A DNA stretch of 8,268 nucleotides. Origin: Anaerolineae bacterium. Its GTDB lineage: Bacteria > Chloroflexota > Anaerolineae > JAFGEY01. A program made the position numbers and the translations under genes. Numbering within the stretch: position 1 is the stretch's first letter; each line of letters begins with the position of its first letter. The stretch is from positions 1-8,268 of the forward strand of contig JAFGEY010000511.1 of the NCBI GenBank assembly GCA_016931365.1, written 5' to 3'. Of the stretch, positions 185 through 8,268 are shown piece by piece. The notes beneath the pieces were generated by a model. It was not told the DNA's origin. It saw only the letters and a list, made by a program, of their open reading frames with translations, and did not search any database.

Positions 185-3100
185 ATGATTTACACATTCT
201 ATTCTTACAAGGGCGGCGTCGGCCGATCGATGGCGCTGGCGAATGTGGCCGAGTTGCTTTATCAGGCCGGATTGAAAGTTTTGGTCGTCGATTGGGACCT
301 GGAAGCGCCGGGACTGGAGAAATTTTTTCCGGTTAACCTGGAGCAGGTGCTTGAGCGTCCCGGCATCATTGATATGTTGGTCAGCTATAAGGAACAGATG
401 AGCCAGGGGCTTCCTGCTTTGGATGAAAATGAGCCACTGCCTTTCGAGCGTCCCGAACAGTTTGCCGTGAATATATACTCGGATGAAAGCGCGGGGCAAC
501 TTGGACTGCTCACGGCCGGTCGGCGCTCCCGCGCACATTTCGCCGAATACGCGCATACGATCCTGGCGTTTGATTGGTCGGATTTTTACGAAAACTGGGA
601 TGGTGAGTTATATTTTGAGTGGCTCCGGCAGCAGTTTGAGCAAATGGCCGATGTTGTCTTGATCGATAGTCGAACCGGCGTGACCGAAATGGGAGGCATT
701 TGTACCTATCAGTTCGCCGATGTCGTCGTGATGTTTTGCGCGGCCAATCAACAAAACCTGGACGGCCTCGATGAAATGATCCAAAACCTCAGACATCCCC
801 AAGTTCAAGAGCTGCGGCACGATCGTCCGCTGGAGATTGTAGTGGTTCCGGCGCGCGTCGAAGACCGCGCGGAGGCCGAACGGCTGGACGAGTTTCACAG
901 GCAATTTGTTAGCCAATTTGACCCGTTTTTGCCACAAAAGTTGCAGGACGAGTTGACGTCATTCTGGGAGCTCAAGATACCCCACGTGCCCTATTATGCG
1001 TTCGGCGAAATGGTGGCCGCCCGCAAAGCCGGCAAAGCCGGCTCCGAAGATTTGACCCGCGCCTTTACGGCGTTAACCAGGGCATTGGTCAAGTTGGGCC
1101 CCTGGCCGGCCGATCAAATCTTGATCCCGGAACACAAGACCACTCAGATTCAAATCCCAACAAGACAGGCAACAACACTGATTGGGAAAACGCTAGGACA
1201 GTACCAGGTTGTTGCCAAAGCCGGGCAGGGCGACCGGAGCAATGTCTACAAAGCCTATGCCCCAGGTCAAAGTAACCCGATAGCCATCAAAGTGTTATCG
1301 CCTGCCCTTGCCCAGGATCAGGATACCGTGGACCAATTTCTCAAGCAGGCTCAAGCAGCGGCGGTTCTCGATCATCCAAATATCACTCGCATCCACCAGA
1401 CCGGCGCCGAAGCTGGTCTTTGTTATGTGGCAATGGACTATAAGGAAGGCGTAACCCTGGATGAGTTAATTGAAGCGCACGGATGCCTGCCGCCCATCCG
1501 TATGCTGCGCATTGCTCGACAAATTGCCAACGCACTTGACTATGCTCATAAAAGGGGGTTTATCCATCAAGATGTCAGGCCGGATAATATTTTTATCGAG
1601 CCTGCAAGAGATGATCGGGTCGCTTTGACGGGCTTTGGTATGCCCCAGTTTATCGGCGACCGCAAAACCGGGACGTCTAATGTCTTTTTGTCACGCCCCA
1701 ATTATATGTCGCCCGAACAGTTCGCCGATGGTGTCGTTGATTACCGCACTGATATTTATTCTTTCGCCAGCACACTGTATTATTCGTTGACGGGAAAAAT
1801 ACCCTTCCAGAGACAAACGACATCGGCGACTATCATCGCTGTCATCCAGGAAGAACTGCCCCCCATGTCGCAATTTAGCGGCCACATATCGCCTGAAATT
1901 GAAGCTGTTATTCGCAAGGGATTGTCTAAAAAACCTGCCCATCGATATAGCAGCGCCAGCGAAATGGTCAGCGATCTGGACTGGGCCATCACCAACCCGG
2001 AGACGTTTGTGTTCCCAGACAAAGCCGCTTTATCATCTCGACGAGCCCACCCGAATGAAAACATCGCCGGGCTGGATGCTGAGCCGGGAACGACAAACAG
2101 ATACAAATGGGTGTGGCCTACAGTGGGTGTGAGTATGGCGGTGATTTCAATCGCGGCCTTGTTGATCCTTTTTGGCCCAACGCTCGTAACTCGGGTGCCT
2201 GCACTTGCTTTTTTGAAACCAGCGCCGCTCATCCAAAAGTTCTCGGTAAGTCCCGTCGAGATCGTCCAAGGGGAGAGCGTCATCATCGAATGGGAGGTGA
2301 AAAACGCGGATTCAGTGTCAATTGAGCCAAGCATTCAATGGAACACATCCCCCAGCGGCCGACTGGTGCACAAGCCGGCAGAAACGACGATCTACGAACT
2401 GGTCGTGCCTGAAGTTGGGCACCGCATTCAGCAGGTGGTCGTCAACCCGGCTCCTGAAACGCCAGTGATCGAGTTCTTCCAGATCACACCCCAGGAGCAG
2501 GTGCGCGGAGGGGATGTCGAATTGTCGTGGCGAGTCACAGGCCAGGTGACCAATGTCGAGATCACGGCAGATTTCAAGACAATGTCTGCCCTCGCCTCTG
2601 AAAGTAAACTCGTCTTGGCTGCCGAACAGACGGCTTCGTTCATTCTGATTGCTTACAATGGCGAACTGCGAACGAGCAGCTCGGTTCAGCTCAAGGTGAT
2701 CGATCCGACGCTGACCCCGACGCCGACATCCACATCCACGCCGACGCCGACGCCGACGCCGACGTCCACATCCACGCCAACAACGACGCCGACGCCAACG
2801 CCGACGCCCATATTGACGCCAGAGCCGGGCGCATCGCTCGACTGGGCGAACGATCAGAGCGCGCTGATGTACGTGCCCGGCATCTCTGGCGTTGACCCAT
2901 TCTGGATCGACCGTCACGAAGTGACCAATGCTCAGTTCGACGCATTCGTCAAGGCTACGGGCTACAAGACCACCGCAGAGATGGCCAAGAAAGGGTGGAA
3001 ATGGACGCCACAAGGCGTCGAATTCATCTGGTATGCCTACTGGTACGAACCGTTGGGGCCCTACTATCCCTCTGTCGAGGAAGCGATGCAGCATCCAGTG

Positions 3101-3589
3101 GTGTCGGTGAGTTGGGATGACGCTGCCGCATACTGCCAGTGGGCCGGCAAGCGGTTGCCTACCGAGGCCGAATGGCAGTTGGCCGCCTTTGGCGCCGATG
3201 GCCGGCAATACCCCTGGGGCAATGAGGCGCCCGGCGGGCAATATTTGAACTATTGTGACGCACAGTGTCAGTGGGGCAACAAGGCTGGCGACAAGGATGG
3301 TTTCGCGCGGACGGCGCCGGTTTGCCAATATTCACAGGGATTGAGCCCGTACGGGCTGTGTGATATGGGCGGTAACGTCTGGGAGTGGACTGCCGATTGG
3401 GAAGTGGAAGGCAAGACACGCGTGATCCGCGGTAGCTCGTGGGCACGTCCGGCCGACGATGCCGGTCTTTCAGGCCGGGCCGGCTACGAGTACAACGGAG
3501 TACTGGACGTTTTGGGCTTCCGGTGCACCCGCGATGCCAACTTTGAGGTCATCAAGCAGGGAGATGCCTGGACGAAAACAAGTCCATAA
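185..3589 (+). CDS. KGGVGR-type ParA/MinD-like NTPase fused to a pseudokinase receptor with Ig-like and FGE-sulfatase-like ectodomain
   Basis: Predicted single-pass membrane signalling protein of 1134 residues; no enzymatic role is established. Residues 1-310 are a ParA/MinD/SIMIBI-type NTPase: deviant Walker A KGGVGRS (9-15, with Arg where ParA has the second Lys), VLVVDWDLEAPG (32-43) with Asp36 and Asp38, and Walker B VVLIDSRTG (157-165). Residues 339-605 have a Hanks-kinase fold that looks inactive: the Gly loop is GQGDRS, Lys369 is kept, the alpha-C Glu is Gln388, HRD is HQD (461-463), the catalytic-loop Lys is Arg465, Asn468 is kept, and DFG is GFG (483-485). A transmembrane helix follows (about 644-664), then Ig-like domains (682-755, 758-840), a TP-rich spacer (841-878) and an FGE-sulfatase-like domain (885-1117) with the family motifs GNVWEW, RVIRGSSW and GFRC. 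There is no signal peptide, so the expected topology is N-in/C-out. ATG 185 was chosen because an AGAGG lies 6 bases upstream and the NTPase strand starts there; an in-frame TTG at 107 only adds an unrelated 26-residue tail. It is probably first in an operon with the next gene. Domain calls are firm; kinase inactivity and any ligand are inferred. Confidence 0.93.
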   Translation: MIYTFYSYKGGVGRSMALANVAELLYQAGLKVLVVDWDLEAPGLEKFFPVNLEQVLERPGIIDMLVSYKEQMSQGLPALDENEPLPFERPEQFAVNIYSDESAGQLGLLTAGRRSRAHFAEYAHTILAFDWSDFYENWDGELYFEWLRQQFEQMADVVLIDSRTGVTEMGGICTYQFADVVVMFCAANQQNLDGLDEMIQNLRHPQVQELRHDRPLEIVVVPARVEDRAEAERLDEFHRQFVSQFDPFLPQKLQDELTSFWELKIPHVPYYAFGEMVAARKAGKAGSEDLTRAFTALTRALVKLGPWPADQILIPEHKTTQIQIPTRQATTLIGKTLGQYQVVAKAGQGDRSNVYKAYAPGQSNPIAIKVLSPALAQDQDTVDQFLKQAQAAAVLDHPNITRIHQTGAEAGLCYVAMDYKEGVTLDELIEAHGCLPPIRMLRIARQIANALDYAHKRGFIHQDVRPDNIFIEPARDDRVALTGFGMPQFIGDRKTGTSNVFLSRPNYMSPEQFADGVVDYRTDIYSFASTLYYSLTGKIPFQRQTTSATIIAVIQEELPPMSQFSGHISPEIEAVIRKGLSKKPAHRYSSASEMVSDLDWAITNPETFVFPDKAALSSRRAHPNENIAGLDAEPGTTNRYKWVWPTVGVSMAVISIAALLILFGPTLVTRVPALAFLKPAPLIQKFSVSPVEIVQGESVIIEWEVKNADSVSIEPSIQWNTSPSGRLVHKPAETTIYELVVPEVGHRIQQVVVNPAPETPVIEFFQITPQEQVRGGDVELSWRVTGQVTNVEITADFKTMSALASESKLVLAAEQTASFILIAYNGELRTSSSVQLKVIDPTLTPTPTSTSTPTPTPTPTSTSTPTTTPTPTPTPILTPEPGASLDWANDQSALMYVPGISGVDPFWIDRHEVTNAQFDAFVKATGYKTTAEMAKKGWKWTPQGVEFIWYAYWYEPLGPYYPSVEEAMQHPVVSVSWDDAAAYCQWAGKRLPTEAEWQLAAFGADGRQYPWGNEAPGGQYLNYCDAQCQWGNKAGDKDGFARTAPVCQYSQGLSPYGLCDMGGNVWEWTADWEVEGKTRVIRGSSWARPADDAGLSGRAGYEYNGVLDVLGFRCTRDANFEVIKQGDAWTKTSP
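2168..3589 (+). repeat. Ectodomain-coding long direct repeat, copy 1
   Basis: This stretch codes for the end of the transmembrane helix, both Ig-like domains, the TP spacer and the FGE-sulfatase-like domain of the upstream protein. It matches 4620-6050 almost end to end with small indels (net 9 bases). By eye about four in five residues of the FGE-like part are identical, and some 40-base blocks differ at only one or two positions. Similarity starts abruptly at the membrane helix (CTTTTTGG at 2168 and 4620). Confidence 0.9.
2705..2818 (+). repeat. Low-complexity Thr/Pro spacer (copy 1)
   Basis: Imperfect hexamer-type repeats (variants of ACGCCG and ACATCC) code for alternating Thr-Pro and Ser-Thr, about 38 residues, between the second Ig-like domain and the FGE-like domain. 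Such spacers are common in extracellular proteins of Chloroflexota and probably act as an extended, possibly glycosylated, stalk. Confidence 0.85.
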
Positions 3590-3622
3590 CACTCAAGATC
3601 GGGTTTTTCTATTGTTTGCTCG

Positions 3623-3629
3623 AAAGGTG
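3623..3629 (+). promoter_or_regulatory. Ribosome binding site of the active kinase gene
   Basis: AAAGGTG lies 6 bases before ATG 3636 in the 46-base gap after the upstream stop codon. No promoter or terminator hairpin is visible in the gap, which supports co-transcription with the upstream gene. Confidence 0.7.
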
Positions 3630-3635
3630 CTTCAA

Positions 3636-6050
3636 ATGACGGCAACAGATTTAGCTGGACAAGTCTTGGGCGAATACAAACTGGTTATCAAGCTGGGTGA
3701 AGGAGGAATGGGAGCAGTATATAAGGCGTACTCGCTTGCCGATCCGCAGCATTTCTTGGCTATCAAGGTACTGTCTTCAAGACTCGCAGGTAGTGATGAT
3801 CTGATAAACCGGTTTTTGCGGGAAGCGAAAGCACTAGCAGCTTTATCGCACCTTCACATTCTTCGTATCATTGATGTAGCCAGTCAGAATGATGTTCGTT
3901 ACCTTGTGATGGAGTATTTGGAAGGCAAATCTCTAGAAAATATATTATCCGAACGTAAGATTATACCGGATGACAAAATCTTACATGTTGCCCGCCAAAT
4001 TTCTGAAGCACTAGATTATGCTCACAACAGACGTCTAGTTCATCGAGACGTAAAACCAAGCAATATTATGATCGATCACAAGAAAGACGATTTTGTCACA
4101 TTGATGGATTTTGGCCTGGTCAAAGTGCTGGATGGTGTCAAAATCACTCGAACCGACATAATCTTGGGAACTCCAGAGTATATGGCACCCGAACAGATAA
4201 GAGGAGAGCAAGTCGACGGCCGTGCTGATGTCTACTCATTGGGCATTATAATTTACCAAATGCTTACAGGGAAATCTCCTTTTCAAAAACCAACCACCGA
4301 GGCGGTTCTCTATGCTCAAGTGAACGAACGACCACCCGCTATGTGGGAAATGGGGGCAGAAGTACCGCCAGAGGTGGAAAGCGTTGTGCTCAAAGCATTG
4401 GCCAAGGATCCCGACAAGCGCTATCAAAGTGCAGGCGCATTAGTCGACGATCTGGAGCGGGCAATGAAAGTGCCAGGATCTTTCGAGATGCCGGTGATTG
4501 GGACTACACCGCCGTTAGTCGAGCCGATAAAAACTTCTGTGCCGCCACCCAAACGCAGGCGCATATGGCCGATGCTTGCTGCTGGCATCCTGATCGAGAT
4601 CGCGATCATCTTTGCTGCTCTTTTTGGTCCAACGCTCGTAGCCAGGGTGCCCTGGCTTGAGATTCTGAGGCCAGTGCCGGTGATCCGGCAGTTTTCGGTC
4701 AGCCCCGCCGAGATCGTTCAAGGTGAGAGCGTTGCCATCGAATGGGATGTAGGAAACGTGGATTCAGTGTCAATTGGGCCGGGCATCCAGCAAAACCTTC
4801 CTCCCAGCGGTCGGCTGGTACAACAGCCGACTGAAACGACGGTTTATGAACTGATCGTACCCGGAGGCGGAAGCCACATCCAGCAGGTGGTTGTCAACCC
4901 GGCTCCAGAAGCGCCAGTGATCGAGTTCTTTCAGATCACACCCCAGGAGCAGGTGCGCGGCGGGGAGGTTGAATTGTCCTGGCGCGTCACGGGTCAGGTG
5001 ACCAATGTCGAGATCACGGCCAACTTTCAGACCATGTCCGCTCTTTCCCCGGAAGACAAGATCACGTTGGCTGCCGAACAAACGACTTCGTTCATTCTGA
5101 CCGCTTACAATGGCGACCTGCGAACGAGCAGTTCGATTCAGCTCAAGGTGGTCGATCCACCAACGCTGCCGCCGCCGCCAACGCCCACATTCACGCCGAT
5201 GCCGACGCCGACACCCACACCCACATCCACGCCAACAGTGACGCCACCGCCGCCGACGCCGACGCCCATATTGACGCCAGAGCCGGGCGCGTCGCTCAAC
5301 TGGACGGTGGATCAAAGCACACTGATGTACGTGCCCGGCATTTCTGGCGTTGACCCGTTCTGGATCGACCGTCACGAAGTGACCAACGCCCAGTTCGATG
5401 CATTCGTCAAGGCCACCGGCTACAAAACCACCGCAGAAAAGAACAAGAAAGCGTGGAAGTGGAAGCCACAAGGCCCCTTCGAAGTGATTTGGAATGCCTA
5501 TTGGTTCAGGCCCTTGGGTCCCAACAAGCCATCTGTCGAAGAAACGATGCAACATCCGGTGGTGTCGGTAAGTTGGGATGACGCCGCTGCATACTGCGAG
5601 TGGGCTGGCAAGCGGTTGCCTACCGAGGCCGAGTGGCAGTTGGCTGCCTTTGGCATCGATGGATGGCAGTACCCGTGGGGCAACGAGACGCCTACCGGGC
5701 AGTACTTGAATTATTGCGATGCGCAATGTCAATGGGGCAACAAGGCTGGCGACAAGGACGGTTTCGCGCGGACAGCGCCGGTCTGTCAATATGGGCAGGG
5801 ATTGAGTCCGTATGAGCTGTGTGACATGGGCGGCAACGTCTGGGAGTGGACGGCAGACTGGGATGCTGAAGGCAAGAAGCGAGTGATCCGCGGCGGTTCG
5901 TGGGCACATCCGGCTGGCGATGCCAGTACATCTGGCCGGGCCAGCTATGAATACAATGGAGCACTGGATGTTTTGGGCTTCCGGTGTGTCCACAATGCCG
6001 ACTTTGAGGTCGTCAAGCAGGGAAACAGTTGGACGAAAACAAATCCATGA
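3636..6050 (+). CDS. Transmembrane Ser/Thr protein kinase (PknB-like) with Ig-like and FGE-sulfatase-like ectodomain
   Basis: Predicted receptor-type Hanks Ser/Thr kinase of 804 residues, transferring phosphate from ATP to protein Ser/Thr in the cytoplasm under control of an outside sensor. The kinase domain (13-278) has every canonical residue: Gly loop GEGGMG (21-26), Lys44 in LAIK, alpha-C Glu63, HRD 136-138, Lys140, Asn143, DFG 158-160, Thr179 in GTPEYMAPE and alpha-F Asp198. Thr171, Thr173 and Thr179 of the activation loop are plausible autophosphorylation sites. A KRRR cluster (307-310 region) precedes a transmembrane helix (about 310-332), matching N-in/C-out. Outside are two Ig-like domains (348-420, 427-508), a TP/PP-rich spacer (508-547) and an FGE-sulfatase-like domain (555-786) with six Cys at the same places as in the upstream paralogue. 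ATG 3636 was preferred over longer in-frame starts because AAAGGTG lies 6 bases upstream and the kinase begins at once; earlier starts overlap the upstream gene. The 46-base gap suggests an operon. The kinase half is clearly AT-richer than the ectodomain half, pointing to mosaic origin. Substrates are unknown. Confidence 0.95.
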   Translation: MTATDLAGQVLGEYKLVIKLGEGGMGAVYKAYSLADPQHFLAIKVLSSRLAGSDDLINRFLREAKALAALSHLHILRIIDVASQNDVRYLVMEYLEGKSLENILSERKIIPDDKILHVARQISEALDYAHNRRLVHRDVKPSNIMIDHKKDDFVTLMDFGLVKVLDGVKITRTDIILGTPEYMAPEQIRGEQVDGRADVYSLGIIIYQMLTGKSPFQKPTTEAVLYAQVNERPPAMWEMGAEVPPEVESVVLKALAKDPDKRYQSAGALVDDLERAMKVPGSFEMPVIGTTPPLVEPIKTSVPPPKRRRIWPMLAAGILIEIAIIFAALFGPTLVARVPWLEILRPVPVIRQFSVSPAEIVQGESVAIEWDVGNVDSVSIGPGIQQNLPPSGRLVQQPTETTVYELIVPGGGSHIQQVVVNPAPEAPVIEFFQITPQEQVRGGEVELSWRVTGQVTNVEITANFQTMSALSPEDKITLAAEQTTSFILTAYNGDLRTSSSIQLKVVDPPTLPPPPTPTFTPMPTPTPTPTSTPTVTPPPPTPTPILTPEPGASLNWTVDQSTLMYVPGISGVDPFWIDRHEVTNAQFDAFVKATGYKTTAEKNKKAWKWKPQGPFEVIWNAYWFRPLGPNKPSVEETMQHPVVSVSWDDAAAYCEWAGKRLPTEAEWQLAAFGIDGWQYPWGNETPTGQYLNYCDAQCQWGNKAGDKDGFARTAPVCQYGQGLSPYELCDMGGNVWEWTADWDAEGKKRVIRGGSWAHPAGDASTSGRASYEYNGALDVLGFRCVHNADFEVVKQGNSWTKTNP
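4620..6050 (+). repeat. Ectodomain-coding long direct repeat, copy 2
   Basis: Second copy of the ectodomain module, in the active kinase gene. Upstream of 4620 the two genes resemble each other only as distant kinase domains, so the duplicated unit is the sensor, not the whole gene. Two long direct copies in tandem genes are a substrate for gene conversion or deletion between them. Confidence 0.9.
5157..5276 (+). repeat. Low-complexity Thr/Pro spacer (copy 2)
   Basis: Equivalent spacer of the active kinase, about 40 residues. It is richer in consecutive prolines (PPPP at two places) than copy 1 and differs in unit order, so the spacer has changed faster than the domains on both sides. Confidence 0.85.
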
Positions 6051-6055
6051 CAGCT

Positions 6056-7780
6056 TTAATTGGCACAGACAGGTTTACCCAGGCTGGTATCTTGACCAAC
6101 TCGCTGCCCGCCTGATTCAACCCATACGGTTCCGACAAAGAAAGATCTGTCTCCCGGAAACTGAATTACTGCTACATCACGTTCGTTATCAGCCTTAACT
6201 ACAAACGAAACCGGGTCCGTATTCCAATAGAGTTTGTAATTTTTGCCGTCGCCGCCGGAAATTCTAACTTCAAAATAAGCCGTCCATCCCCCTGTTGGAT
6301 TGCAGACAGCAGCCGACCAAACATGCTCAATCTTGAGTGTGCCGGGAGCAATCACGAGGCCGGTCGGGGTCGATTTGGGGGTGGGAATGACAGTTACAGT
6401 TGGAGTAATGATTTCTAGCGACTGCCAATCAGCCGTGTAGGTAAACCTGGGCGCATAGGCGAACCCTTCTATGGCCTGGCTGTTGCGAATGTAAAGCCAC
6501 TTGCCGTATAATTGATCGTTGGCCCGGCCGAGGATGGGGACAGATTCTTTGGCCTCAACAATGCCCAATTGGCGCGAGTTGTCGAGCGGCGCTTCAAAGA
6601 TGCTCGATGCCAGGTTGGCAACGGCGACGGGCGGTGTCGGGGTGGCAGTAGGCGTATCTGTGAACGTTGGAGTAGCCGTCGGCGTTGCGGACGGCGTAGG
6701 CGTCGGAGATGACGTCGATGTTGGGGGCAATGTTGAAGTAGGCGATGACGTAGGGGGTAAGGTCAACTCTGGCGTTGGTGTCGGGGCCAATGTTGAGGTA
6801 GGCAGTGGCGTAGGGGATAAGGTCGGCTCTGGCGTCCGAGTCGGCATCAGTGTCGGAGTCCAAACTGCTATCGGCGTTTGCGTAGGAAAAAGAAAAGCCC
6901 ATGCGGTGGCAATAGGATTTGATACCTGGATCGGGGCTAACGCAATTCCGCCAATAACTAACAGCACCAATGCAACTACCAGACCCCACACAAGAGCTTT
7001 TTTGCCAATTTTGAGCTTGGCAGGTATCCTGGGTTGGGTATCATCGTCGGTAATCGACAGTGCGGACAGCATCTGCTCAACGTTGCTAAATCGCTTTCGA
7101 GGAGATTGGTGAGTGGCCCTTTGAACTACATCTTGGATTTGCCTGGCGCGCTTTTTTATGCCAGGCACCTGGGCATTTACAACATATTCTTCAAGTAGCT
7201 TACCCAACGCATAGATATCCGAATAAAGATCGGGCGGATCTCCCTGCTTTTGTTCAGGAGAAACATATTCAGATGCCTTTATATCCTGTTCCGCGCTAAA
7301 CAAGTTGGGATATTGGCTCGTTACTGCGCCCGTTTCAAAATTGGTCAGCAATGGCTGGCCGGTCTCGTCAAACAGAATATTTTCTGGATTGACATAGCCA
7401 TGCACGATGCCTGCTTTGTGAGCAGCAGACAATGCTTGACCTATTTGCATACTGATGTCAATAGCCTCGTCAAAAGAGAGCGATTTTCTTCGCTCTTTCA
7501 GAGATGTAGAGGAAACGTCATTAGTGACACAATATACAAGATCGTCCCGGCAACCATAATCCAAAATAGTCAAAATATTTTTATGCCGCAAAGCCTCCAA
7601 GTCTTTGAACGCTTGAGCCAGGCGTTTCTGCGCATTGGTTTGCCCCGCTAGCCCCTTGAAGACCCTGATTATGACATAACGGTCCAGACTTTGCTGATAG
7701 CCTCTGTAAACATCGTCAAGTTCGCTGCTGCTGATCCTGGATTGAATGAGGTAATGGCCCAAAGTGCTTCCGATGTCCAT
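6056..7780 (-). CDS. Transmembrane pseudokinase with TP-rich stalk, bacterial SH3-like module and unrecognised C-terminal domain
   Basis: A 574-residue membrane protein with a protein-kinase fold (about 8-240) that should not catalyse phosphotransfer. The Gly loop has no glycines (RISSSELDDVYRG), the VAIK Lys is Arg39 (VIIRV), the alpha-C Glu is Asp60, HRD is HGY (127-129) with Tyr for the catalytic Asp, the loop Lys is Asn131, and DFG is NFE (147-149). Fold-supporting elements persist: Asn134, SPE (175-177) and alpha-F Asp188. After a basic stretch (KIGKK) comes a transmembrane helix (about 262-283), a TP-rich stalk (301-383) containing a 20-residue tandem repeat, an SH3_3-like module (about 388-447) and a beta-rich domain (482-573) that I do not recognise, whose only Cys (493, 572) sit at its two ends and could form a disulfide. 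ATG 7780 is supported by AAGGAT 7 bases upstream and a consensus promoter before it. It converges on the kinase gene with 5 bases between stops. It may be a scaffold or allosteric regulator of the neighbouring kinase; this is inference. Confidence 0.93.
   Translation of the reverse strand: MDIGSTLGHYLIQSRISSSELDDVYRGYQQSLDRYVIIRVFKGLAGQTNAQKRLAQAFKDLEALRHKNILTILDYGCRDDLVYCVTNDVSSTSLKERRKSLSFDEAIDISMQIGQALSAAHKAGIVHGYVNPENILFDETGQPLLTNFETGAVTSQYPNLFSAEQDIKASEYVSPEQKQGDPPDLYSDIYALGKLLEEYVVNAQVPGIKKRARQIQDVVQRATHQSPRKRFSNVEQMLSALSITDDDTQPRIPAKLKIGKKALVWGLVVALVLLVIGGIALAPIQVSNPIATAWAFLFPTQTPIAVWTPTLMPTRTPEPTLSPTPLPTSTLAPTPTPELTLPPTSSPTSTLPPTSTSSPTPTPSATPTATPTFTDTPTATPTPPVAVANLASSIFEAPLDNSRQLGIVEAKESVPILGRANDQLYGKWLYIRNSQAIEGFAYAPRFTYTADWQSLEIITPTVTVIPTPKSTPTGLVIAPGTLKIEHVWSAAVCNPTGGWTAYFEVRISGGDGKNYKLYWNTDPVSFVVKADNERDVAVIQFPGDRSFFVGTVWVESGGQRVGQDTSLGKPVCAN
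6629..6880 (-). repeat. Thr/Pro-rich stalk of the pseudokinase gene
   Basis: About 84 residues of mostly Thr, Pro and Ser, directly outside the membrane helix and before the SH3-like module. It is about twice as long as the spacers of the two neighbouring proteins, although here it starts close to the membrane rather than after Ig-like domains. Confidence 0.85.
6716..6835 (-). repeat. 60-base tandem duplication within the stalk
   Basis: Two adjacent 60-base units (6776-6835 and 6716-6775) differ at about 12 positions. Each encodes a 20-residue unit starting TPE, with the pattern TPExTLxPTxxPTSTLxPTx. The exact 60-base period keeps the frame and lengthened the stalk by one unit. Confidence 0.85.
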
Positions 7781-7823: not shown

Positions 7824-7851
7824 ATTATACTGCTTATGCTCATTTTGTCAA
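7824..7851 (-). promoter_or_regulatory. Consensus sigma70-type promoter for the pseudokinase gene
   Basis: Read on the minus strand, a perfect -35 TTGACA (7851-7846) and a perfect -10 TATAAT (7829-7824) are separated by 16 bases. Transcription should start near 7817, giving a leader of about 37 bases before ATG 7780. Both hexamers match the consensus exactly, which is unlikely by chance at the right distance and orientation before a gene. The spacer is one base shorter than the optimum of 17. No operator-like inverted repeat overlaps it, so it looks like a housekeeping promoter. Confidence 0.85.
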
Positions 7852-8073: not shown

Positions 8074-8268
8074 ACACCCTCACTCAGGACACTATCGTCC
8101 TGGCTTTTCAAGCACCACCCGCCCGATCAACCATCTCTTTTGCCCATCGTGGTCGGCATGGTGGGCAGCGCCGAGGCGGCCCAGGGCAACCGCTGGAGCC
8201 AGGCCGTGCTCGAAACGGGCAACGCCGAGATCGACTACTTTGTGATCCACACCTACCCCAACTATTAC
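8074..8268 (+). pseudogene. Start-less fragment resembling the inside of a glycoside hydrolase, running off the window
   Basis: An open frame follows a TGA at 8071-8073 and continues to the window end (65 codons). From about 8143 the translation reads like the interior of a TIM-barrel glycoside hydrolase: LPIVVGMVGS, then a Trp-containing helix (NRWSQAVLETG), then IDYFVIHTYPNYY, similar in style to the beta-strand D-(F/Y)-x-x-x-H-x-Y-P motif of arabinofuranosidase-like and related families. The first candidate starts, GTG 8149 and ATG 8158, fall inside this conserved-looking part and have no ribosome binding site, so the N-terminal half of the enzyme is missing. The stretch before 8143 looks unrelated, and G+C content rises at about the same place. 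It could be a decayed gene, a rearrangement breakpoint or an assembly join. The family assignment rests on pattern memory of a short segment and is tentative. Confidence 0.4.

Follow-up and report, generated by a model that had tools for sequence, protein, structure and literature searches.

Bacterial pseudokinases, defined by the loss of at least one of three residues (the VAIK lysine, the HRD aspartate and the DFG aspartate), are described in the accessible part of a review (PMC12599244) as largely unexplored by experiment, and membrane-bound members with scaffold roles are covered there. According to the same portion of that source, the pseudokinase MviN is phosphorylated by an active kinase, after which an FHA protein is recruited. 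Diversity-generating retroelement (DGR) conflict systems are likewise described in the available sections of PMC10907252. The present analysis concerns a cluster of three long genes in an 8,268-nucleotide stretch of DNA from an Anaerolineae bacterium (contig JAFGEY010000511.1 of assembly GCA_016931365.1), referred to as the window; all coordinates are those of the whole window and the genes are numbered 1 to 3 by position. Genes 1 and 2 lie head to tail on the plus strand with 46 bp between them, and gene 3, on the minus strand, converges on gene 2 with the two stop codons 5 bp apart. With one active receptor kinase beside two that lack key residues, the locus represents a compact system for asking how bacteria use dead kinases, and it hints that bacterial receptors may signal by way of them.

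We propose that the products of genes 1 and 2 form a receptor pair in the membrane, with a single phosphotransferase between them, in which the gene 1 pseudokinase would couple sensing to an NTPase arm, and that gene 3 would be a separate, conserved receptor pseudokinase; this reading is held tentatively, as quite possible if short of an even chance. The three predicted proteins share one plan, as a first-pass annotation of this DNA had noted and as Pfam matches, structure models and translations bear out: a Pfam protein kinase domain, one hydrophobic helix, a Thr-Pro (TP)-rich spacer and an outside part.

The matches to the Pfam Pkinase family have E-values of 1.1e-38 for gene 1, 1.2e-58 for gene 2 (PF00069) and 1.5e-17 for gene 3. 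Motifs were called by profile alignment of the kinase domains and are given in the order glycine loop / VAIK / αC / HRD / DFG. The gene 2 domain (3666..4469, plus strand) reads GEGGMG / AIKV / FLREAK / HRDVKPSN / DFG, and with its catalytic motifs complete it looks like a working kinase and is predicted to be of the active type. The gene 1 domain (residues 333–612; 1181..2020, plus strand) reads GQGDRS / AIKV / FLKQAQ / HQDVRPDN / GFG and constitutes the milder case, in which the ATP-site (VAIK) Lys and the catalytic HRD Asp are kept and the αC Glu, replaced by Gln, and the metal-binding DFG Asp are lost. In the gene 3 domain (residues 1–245; 7046..7780, minus strand), which reads SSSELD / IIRV / no αC Glu / HGYVNPEN / NFE, the glycine loop is absent and Lys, αC Glu, HRD Asp and DFG Asp are all lost. 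The letters listed in the first-pass annotation, which assigned intact Lys, αC Glu, HRD and DFG to gene 2 alone, are right by this alignment, and by the three-residue definition gene 1 (through the DFG Asp) and gene 3 (through all three residues) are both pseudokinases.

At least one key residue is lost in five of the 168 kinase domains in which the Lys, HRD-Asp and DFG-Asp columns are covered, rows identical to the window genes being excluded; these are gene 1, gene 3 and the relatives P0122, P0154 and P0099. By source list, each a best-hit list and not a random sample, losses occur in 2/117 relatives of gene 3, in 0/40 relatives of the gene 2 sensor, in 1/8 relatives of gene 1 and in two of the three window genes. 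Across loci L001–L144 and the window genes, the five checked residues are complete in 152 of 161 domain rows, the remaining nine being gene 1, gene 3 (two rows), L093, L097, L111 and partial rows.

Gene 1 (185..3589, plus strand; 1134 aa) starts at ATG 185, within a frame that opens mechanically at TTG 107, and is organized as KGGVGR NTPase–pseudokinase–membrane helix (TM)–two beta-rich domains–TP linker–FGE-type domain. The N-terminal KGGVGR-motif MinD/ParA-like NTPase domain (residues 1–310; 185..1114) passes the cut-off of the curated model NF047398 (KGGVGR-motif AAA ATPase) with 150.4 bits against 90 and also matches CbiA (2.8e-7), and its structure model is mostly confident. The pseudokinase is followed by a membrane helix in the structure model (residues 646–670; 2120..2194), two beta-rich, Ig-like-looking domains defined by model strands (residues 686–841; 2240..2707), a TP-rich linker read from the translation (2708..2821) and an FGE-sulfatase (C-type-lectin-fold) domain (PF03781; 2822..3586). 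Among the 120 gene 1 relatives listed of 5,665, some with incomplete Pfam columns, none has the full architecture, and gene 1 alone carries a kinase plus FGE behind the KGGVGR domain; other KGGVGR relatives listed combine KGGVGR with NACHT and FGE. Eight of the 120 are KGGVGR-kinase fusions (P0002–P0004, P0010, P0014, P0016, P0019 and P0099), of which P0014 and P0016 contain FHA domains and P0099 lacks the catalytic Asp. A scan of 150 genomes with gene 1 residues 1–612, with at most eight candidates scored, gave no listed match that spans both KGGVGR and kinase, and P0099 found a match at 1e-55 in seven of 396 genomes (three candidates scored per genome), none of the nine rows spanning both domains. 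The gene 1 KGGVGR part has one match to PDC-M28B in a defence database. The matches to PD-T4-6 and Mad6 in that database cover the kinase domain, and membership in a defence system was not adopted.

Gene 2 (3636..6050, plus strand; 804 aa), for which ATG 3636 is the preferred start, is organized as active-type kinase–TM–two beta-rich domains–TP linker–FGE-type domain. The membrane helix is a hydrophobic stretch in the translation (4564..4629), the beta-rich domains occupy 4692..5153, and the FGE-type domain occupies 5283..6047. When the sensors of genes 1 and 2, each made of the two beta-rich domains followed by PF03781, are compared, the amino acid identities are 74% and 83% for the beta-rich domains, 87% for the FGE body and 73% for the FGE end, with dN/dS values in the same order of 0.23, 0.17, 0.12 and 0.40. 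The kinase domains are 40% identical, and silent differences amount to 0.31–0.45 in the sensors versus 0.73 in the kinases. In a five-row sensor tree the two genes group together (100/100), and a grouping of gene 1 with P0242/P0243 is rejected (p=3e-10); for the kinase domains, a tree that pairs the two genes is not rejected (approximately unbiased test, p=0.079). The silent divergence and the trees favor gene conversion or exchange of sensors between the two genes, which is likely on this sequence evidence; a step in the third-position GC content of gene 2 from 0.43 to 0.63 could inflate the silent divergence of the kinase part.

Active FGEs need an active-site Cys pair near the C-terminus, and SUMF2 is inactive. 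The gene 2 FGE-type domain, a 255-residue query, aligns with SUMF2 over residues 23–239; FGE/SUMF1 chains align only to residue 194–195, and Treponema variable protein 1 and ToxD reach 234. Because the FGE/SUMF1 alignment stops at that point and no Cys pair was seen at the domain end when the C-termini of the two proteins were aligned, the domain is probably a binding domain in both proteins. A DGR-diversified target is not favored, given the purifying selection and the paralogue differences at the FGE end, which are mostly transitions (AG 14 and CT 12 of 31); no search for a reverse transcriptase or template repeat was made. PASTA repeats had no match in genes 1–3 at E≤0.1, and NF033483 scored below its cut-off, covering the kinase part only. 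The gene 2 sensor has matches at 1e-30 in 71 of 396 genomes (four scored per genome), the best being 52% identical over residues 184–464 of 476.

Since the outside sensors are nearly alike, the same ligand could bring the products of genes 1 and 2 together. Gene 2 would then be the supplier of kinase activity, the gene 1 pseudokinase would serve as a coupling and docking part, and the KGGVGR MinD/ParA-like NTPase at the far end would be the output. Once a ligand is bound, the gene 1 product would be phosphorylated by that of gene 2 or respond to contact with it, and in either case the NTPase arm would alter its nucleotide state or its assembly. Gene 3, with its SH3-like sensor and PknB-type dimer residues, could act on gene 2 or on a similar kinase. 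We infer each of these elements, from the heteromer and the shared ligand to the phosphorylation, the NTPase output and the role of gene 3. If the proposal is true, phosphorylation-linked sensing would be turned directly into a conflict-system-type NTPase switch. A heteromer in which the dead receptor kinase of gene 1 is the obligate, output-bearing partner of gene 2, the C-type-lectin-fold sensor is common to both and a dimer-competent gene 3 adds input, is considered doubtful.

The coupling of kinase and NTPase proposed for gene 1 is in line with its relatives, in which KGGVGR domains are fused to kinases and FHA domains, as in P0014 and P0016, or lie near genes for kinase, PP2C, bDLD1, TIR, NACHT-FGE and EAD7 proteins. 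Six KGGVGR loci were read and the neighbours were scanned in four of them (L155, L209, L210 and L212). A TIR gene is found near KGGVGR in L209 and an EAD7 gene in L212; in L210, bDLD1 and a NACHT-FGE-EAD7 frame are found, and the KGGVGR frame stops just before the latter. The available text of PMC8195603 equates bDLD1 with EAD3. In L155:2232-9451, the only KGGVGR locus within the 21- and 20-locus sets of related loci considered below, a KGGVGR-FHA protein has a kinase, a PP2C phosphatase and a pair of proteins with bacterial death-like domains (bDLD1) in its vicinity, and the locus looks like a phosphorylation-linked conflict-type locus.

Gene 3 (6056..7780, minus strand; 574 aa) is organized as pseudokinase–TM–TP linker–SH3-like domain–C-terminal beta-rich part. 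Its AlphaFold kinase model has pLDDT values mostly above 90, with a dip to 63–78 around residues 151–170, and all 50 matches listed by Foldseek for this model are protein kinases. The membrane helix comprises residues 261–279 in the model (6941..7000), and the TP-rich linker (6626..6886) is read from the translation. The outside part is unlike those of genes 1 and 2: it has no FGE-sulfatase domain, and instead contains an SH3-like domain with a weak match to SH3_3 (6458..6622; E=0.044) and a beta-rich C-terminal part modeled at low confidence (6059..6358). The SH3-like match is stronger in the relatives P0125 and P0131, and the C-terminus of P0125 is similar by eye to that of gene 3.

The degenerate state of gene 3 recurs in P0122, an incomplete relative (461 aa, from a contig of 2,166 bp) with 62% identity, in which Lys is replaced by Arg, the HRD and DFG motifs read HGN and NFE, and the glycine loop is missing. 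The two have a stem of 1.86 in the tree, with tips of 0.36 and 0.35 versus a median of 0.27; a long stem with near-median tips is, on the sequences, the pattern of fast change followed by restraint. The loss of conserved positions was analyzed over the 47 columns that 80% or more of a set of 165 active domains conserve, 17 of which we classed as catalytic and 30 as other. Gene 3 has lost 13/17 catalytic versus 10/30 other columns (p=0.0065) and P0122 12/17 versus 9/30 (p=0.014), and the same concentration of losses at the catalytic site is found in P0154 (p=0.0062). Both gene 3 and P0122 have Leu and Asp at the columns of PknB Leu33 and Asp76, which we take to be the back-to-back dimer residues; PknB mutants L33D and D76A are named in the titles of structure-search matches. 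Gene 3 thus looks like a maintained pseudokinase, as judged from sequence and model.

The closest matches to gene 3 were sought in several collections. None of the matches listed from 150 genomes of the class of L001 (Ardenticatenaceae), at most nine candidates being scored per genome, is an orthologue; 148 of these genomes contain some match, of which the best-scoring is 38% and the highest listed 39% identical. The best 80 of 370 relatives found with gene 3 and P0122 are mostly actinobacterial kinases of 26–33% identity; their loci are all part of the motif count given above, and L001 was the starting point for the search of related genomes. Part of gene 3 is matched by 282 plasmid records, none of which covers 80% of it.

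The named relatives often belong to Anaerolineae or other Chloroflexota, from which the host, too, would probably be placed in this phylum. P0242 and P0243 repeat the plan of gene 2 with intact kinases, on contigs of 9,746 and 15,287 bp. The tandem receptor kinases of the related loci are mostly intact in the three key residues, L151 being the exception, and αC or DFG-Gly changes occur in L150 and L164. L001:474-17296 and L149:111-11946 contain six and five membrane receptor kinases in tandem, respectively, with the three residues intact. The adjacent kinase pair of L150:2698-7503 lacks the αC Glu in both members and has DFD replacing DFG. L151:4457-6133 encodes a related receptor with a TP-rich spacer and a degenerate kinase (no αC Glu, HGN, DFA), and no second kinase was found on its 6.3-kb contig. 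In L160:772-6595, a protein with a CHAT protease-like domain–kinase–TM–FGE architecture adjoins a kinase–TM–FGE protein; the pair is a parallel to genes 1 and 2 in which both kinases have intact motifs. At the right edge of the window (8140-8268), a short open frame (...IDYFVIHTYPNYY) may be part of one more gene, truncated where the contig ends.

Several observations weigh against the proposed receptor pair and its NTPase output. The second P-loop Lys of the KGGVGR domain is Arg in gene 1, as in 109 of the 120 relatives listed (the other 11 did not fit the pattern), which renders NTPase activity uncertain, and such MinD/ParA domains in the systems treated by PMC7159879 are predicted there to be inactive. 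The membrane regions of genes 1 and 2 are only 40% identical, with a dN/dS of 0.60. At the PknB-type dimer columns gene 1 has Gln at both positions and gene 2 has Pro at one, a column made uncertain by an insertion, and the usual back-to-back kinase contact is therefore unlikely for this pair. The trio is absent from 49 distinct related loci (21 + 20 + 8), a set that does not comprise the contigs of P0122, P0242 and P0243. Gene 3 lies on the opposite strand with its own promoter-like site, a 12/12 match to TTGACA-16-TATAAT located 43 bp upstream of its start codon (7824..7851, minus strand) and found by a sigma-70-like consensus scan that gave 10 sites in the window versus 6.8 expected; gene 3 may or may not join genes 1 and 2. 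The first-pass annotation, which placed all three products in one complex, gains support for genes 1 and 2, tied by the short gap and the like sensors, and lacks support for gene 3, given its strand, promoter-like site and sensor. It had not mentioned the opposite strand and different sensor of gene 3, the KGGVGR domain and retained Lys and HRD Asp of gene 1, or the FGE ends of genes 1 and 2.

An ordinary tandem receptor-kinase cluster, with three independent receptors of which two happen to have pseudokinases that each work on their own, as scaffold or phospho-docking site, outside any shared complex, is possible, if clearly short of an even chance. Related genomes often carry TM receptor kinases in tandem, with two or more kinase frames in 9/21 hand-picked loci and 7/20 of a second locus set, and the distinct sensor, strand and promoter-like site of gene 3 fit such an arrangement. 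It accounts less well for the close spacing of genes 1 and 2 and for sensors kept alike under purifying selection, and a single locus with two pseudokinases is unusual.

The state of the gene 1 kinase allows two further explanations. Its losses are not focused on the active site (7/17 catalytic versus 7/30 other columns, p=0.32) and plain relaxation is for this reason still a possibility; together with a long tree tip (0.84 in one tree analysis and 1.03 in a second), this spread over catalytic and structural columns would agree with a kinase in decay after duplication, in a protein that now functions solely through its NTPase and sensor while the kinase fold is a passive spacer. We consider this unlikely: gene 2, with its intact kinase, is also long-tipped (0.63 and 0.76 in the two analyses), the reading frame of 1134 aa is unbroken, its kinase fold is confidently predicted and the Lys and HRD Asp are kept, and the missing catalytic Asp of the fusion P0099 hints at a repeated route. 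The kept VAIK Lys and HQD Asp make residual gene 1 kinase activity possible, and, in the accessible text of PMC12599244, DLHK pseudokinases, one of them with GFG, may retain activity. That the gene 1 domain still acts as a kinase, weakly or atypically and with the DFG loss bypassed, so that the locus has two active kinases, is nevertheless very unlikely in view of the loss of the DFG Asp, the αC Glu and one conserved loop Gly. The first-pass view of the two degenerate domains as non-catalytic partners gains from their open frames and confident folds and from the state that gene 3 shares with P0122, by which they look like kept pseudokinases.

The kinds of component found here, bacterial membrane pseudokinases and conflict-type NTPase modules, are already known, and the architecture is new; judged by titles and abstract starts, no publication about a receptor of the KGGVGR-pseudokinase-FGE type or about such a pairing was found in a literature coverage with few subscription papers. 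As two receptor kinases, one active and one inactive, whose outside parts are alike, genes 1 and 2 recall receptor pairs of the HER2/HER3 type, which are eukaryotic and follow another dimer logic, so that the likeness is an analogy only. PASTA-type receptor kinases (PknB, Stk1, StkP), the nearest solved kinases, have the same order of kinase, single helix and outside sensor, whereas the window receptors have FGE-type or SH3-like sensors in place of PASTA repeats and two of their kinases lack key residues. According to the portion of PMC12599244 available, the MviN pseudokinase (ActPs3 family), which acts with PknB and FhaA, is similarly a membrane protein with a dimerising dead Hanks-type domain; it differs in motifs and organism, has no FGE sensor or NTPase domain, and its gene is not reported there beside a kinase gene. 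The ActPs2 pseudokinases of the same source, compared by description only, resemble gene 3 in having Arg for the β3 Lys and in the loss of the catalytic Asp, but they are Act2-related and mostly carry Asn in place of the HRD Asp together with a deletion at DFG, whereas gene 3 has HGY and NFE, no deletion, and a TP-rich and SH3-like outside part. The NTPase conflict systems, as presented in the accessible part of PMC7159879, also couple a kinase to a MinD/ParA domain and contain FGE-type domains. In those systems the MinD/ParA domain follows the kinase, whereas gene 1 combines KGGVGR, pseudokinase, TM and FGE in this order in one membrane receptor, and the locus in this way links receptor kinases to conflict-type NTPase modules.

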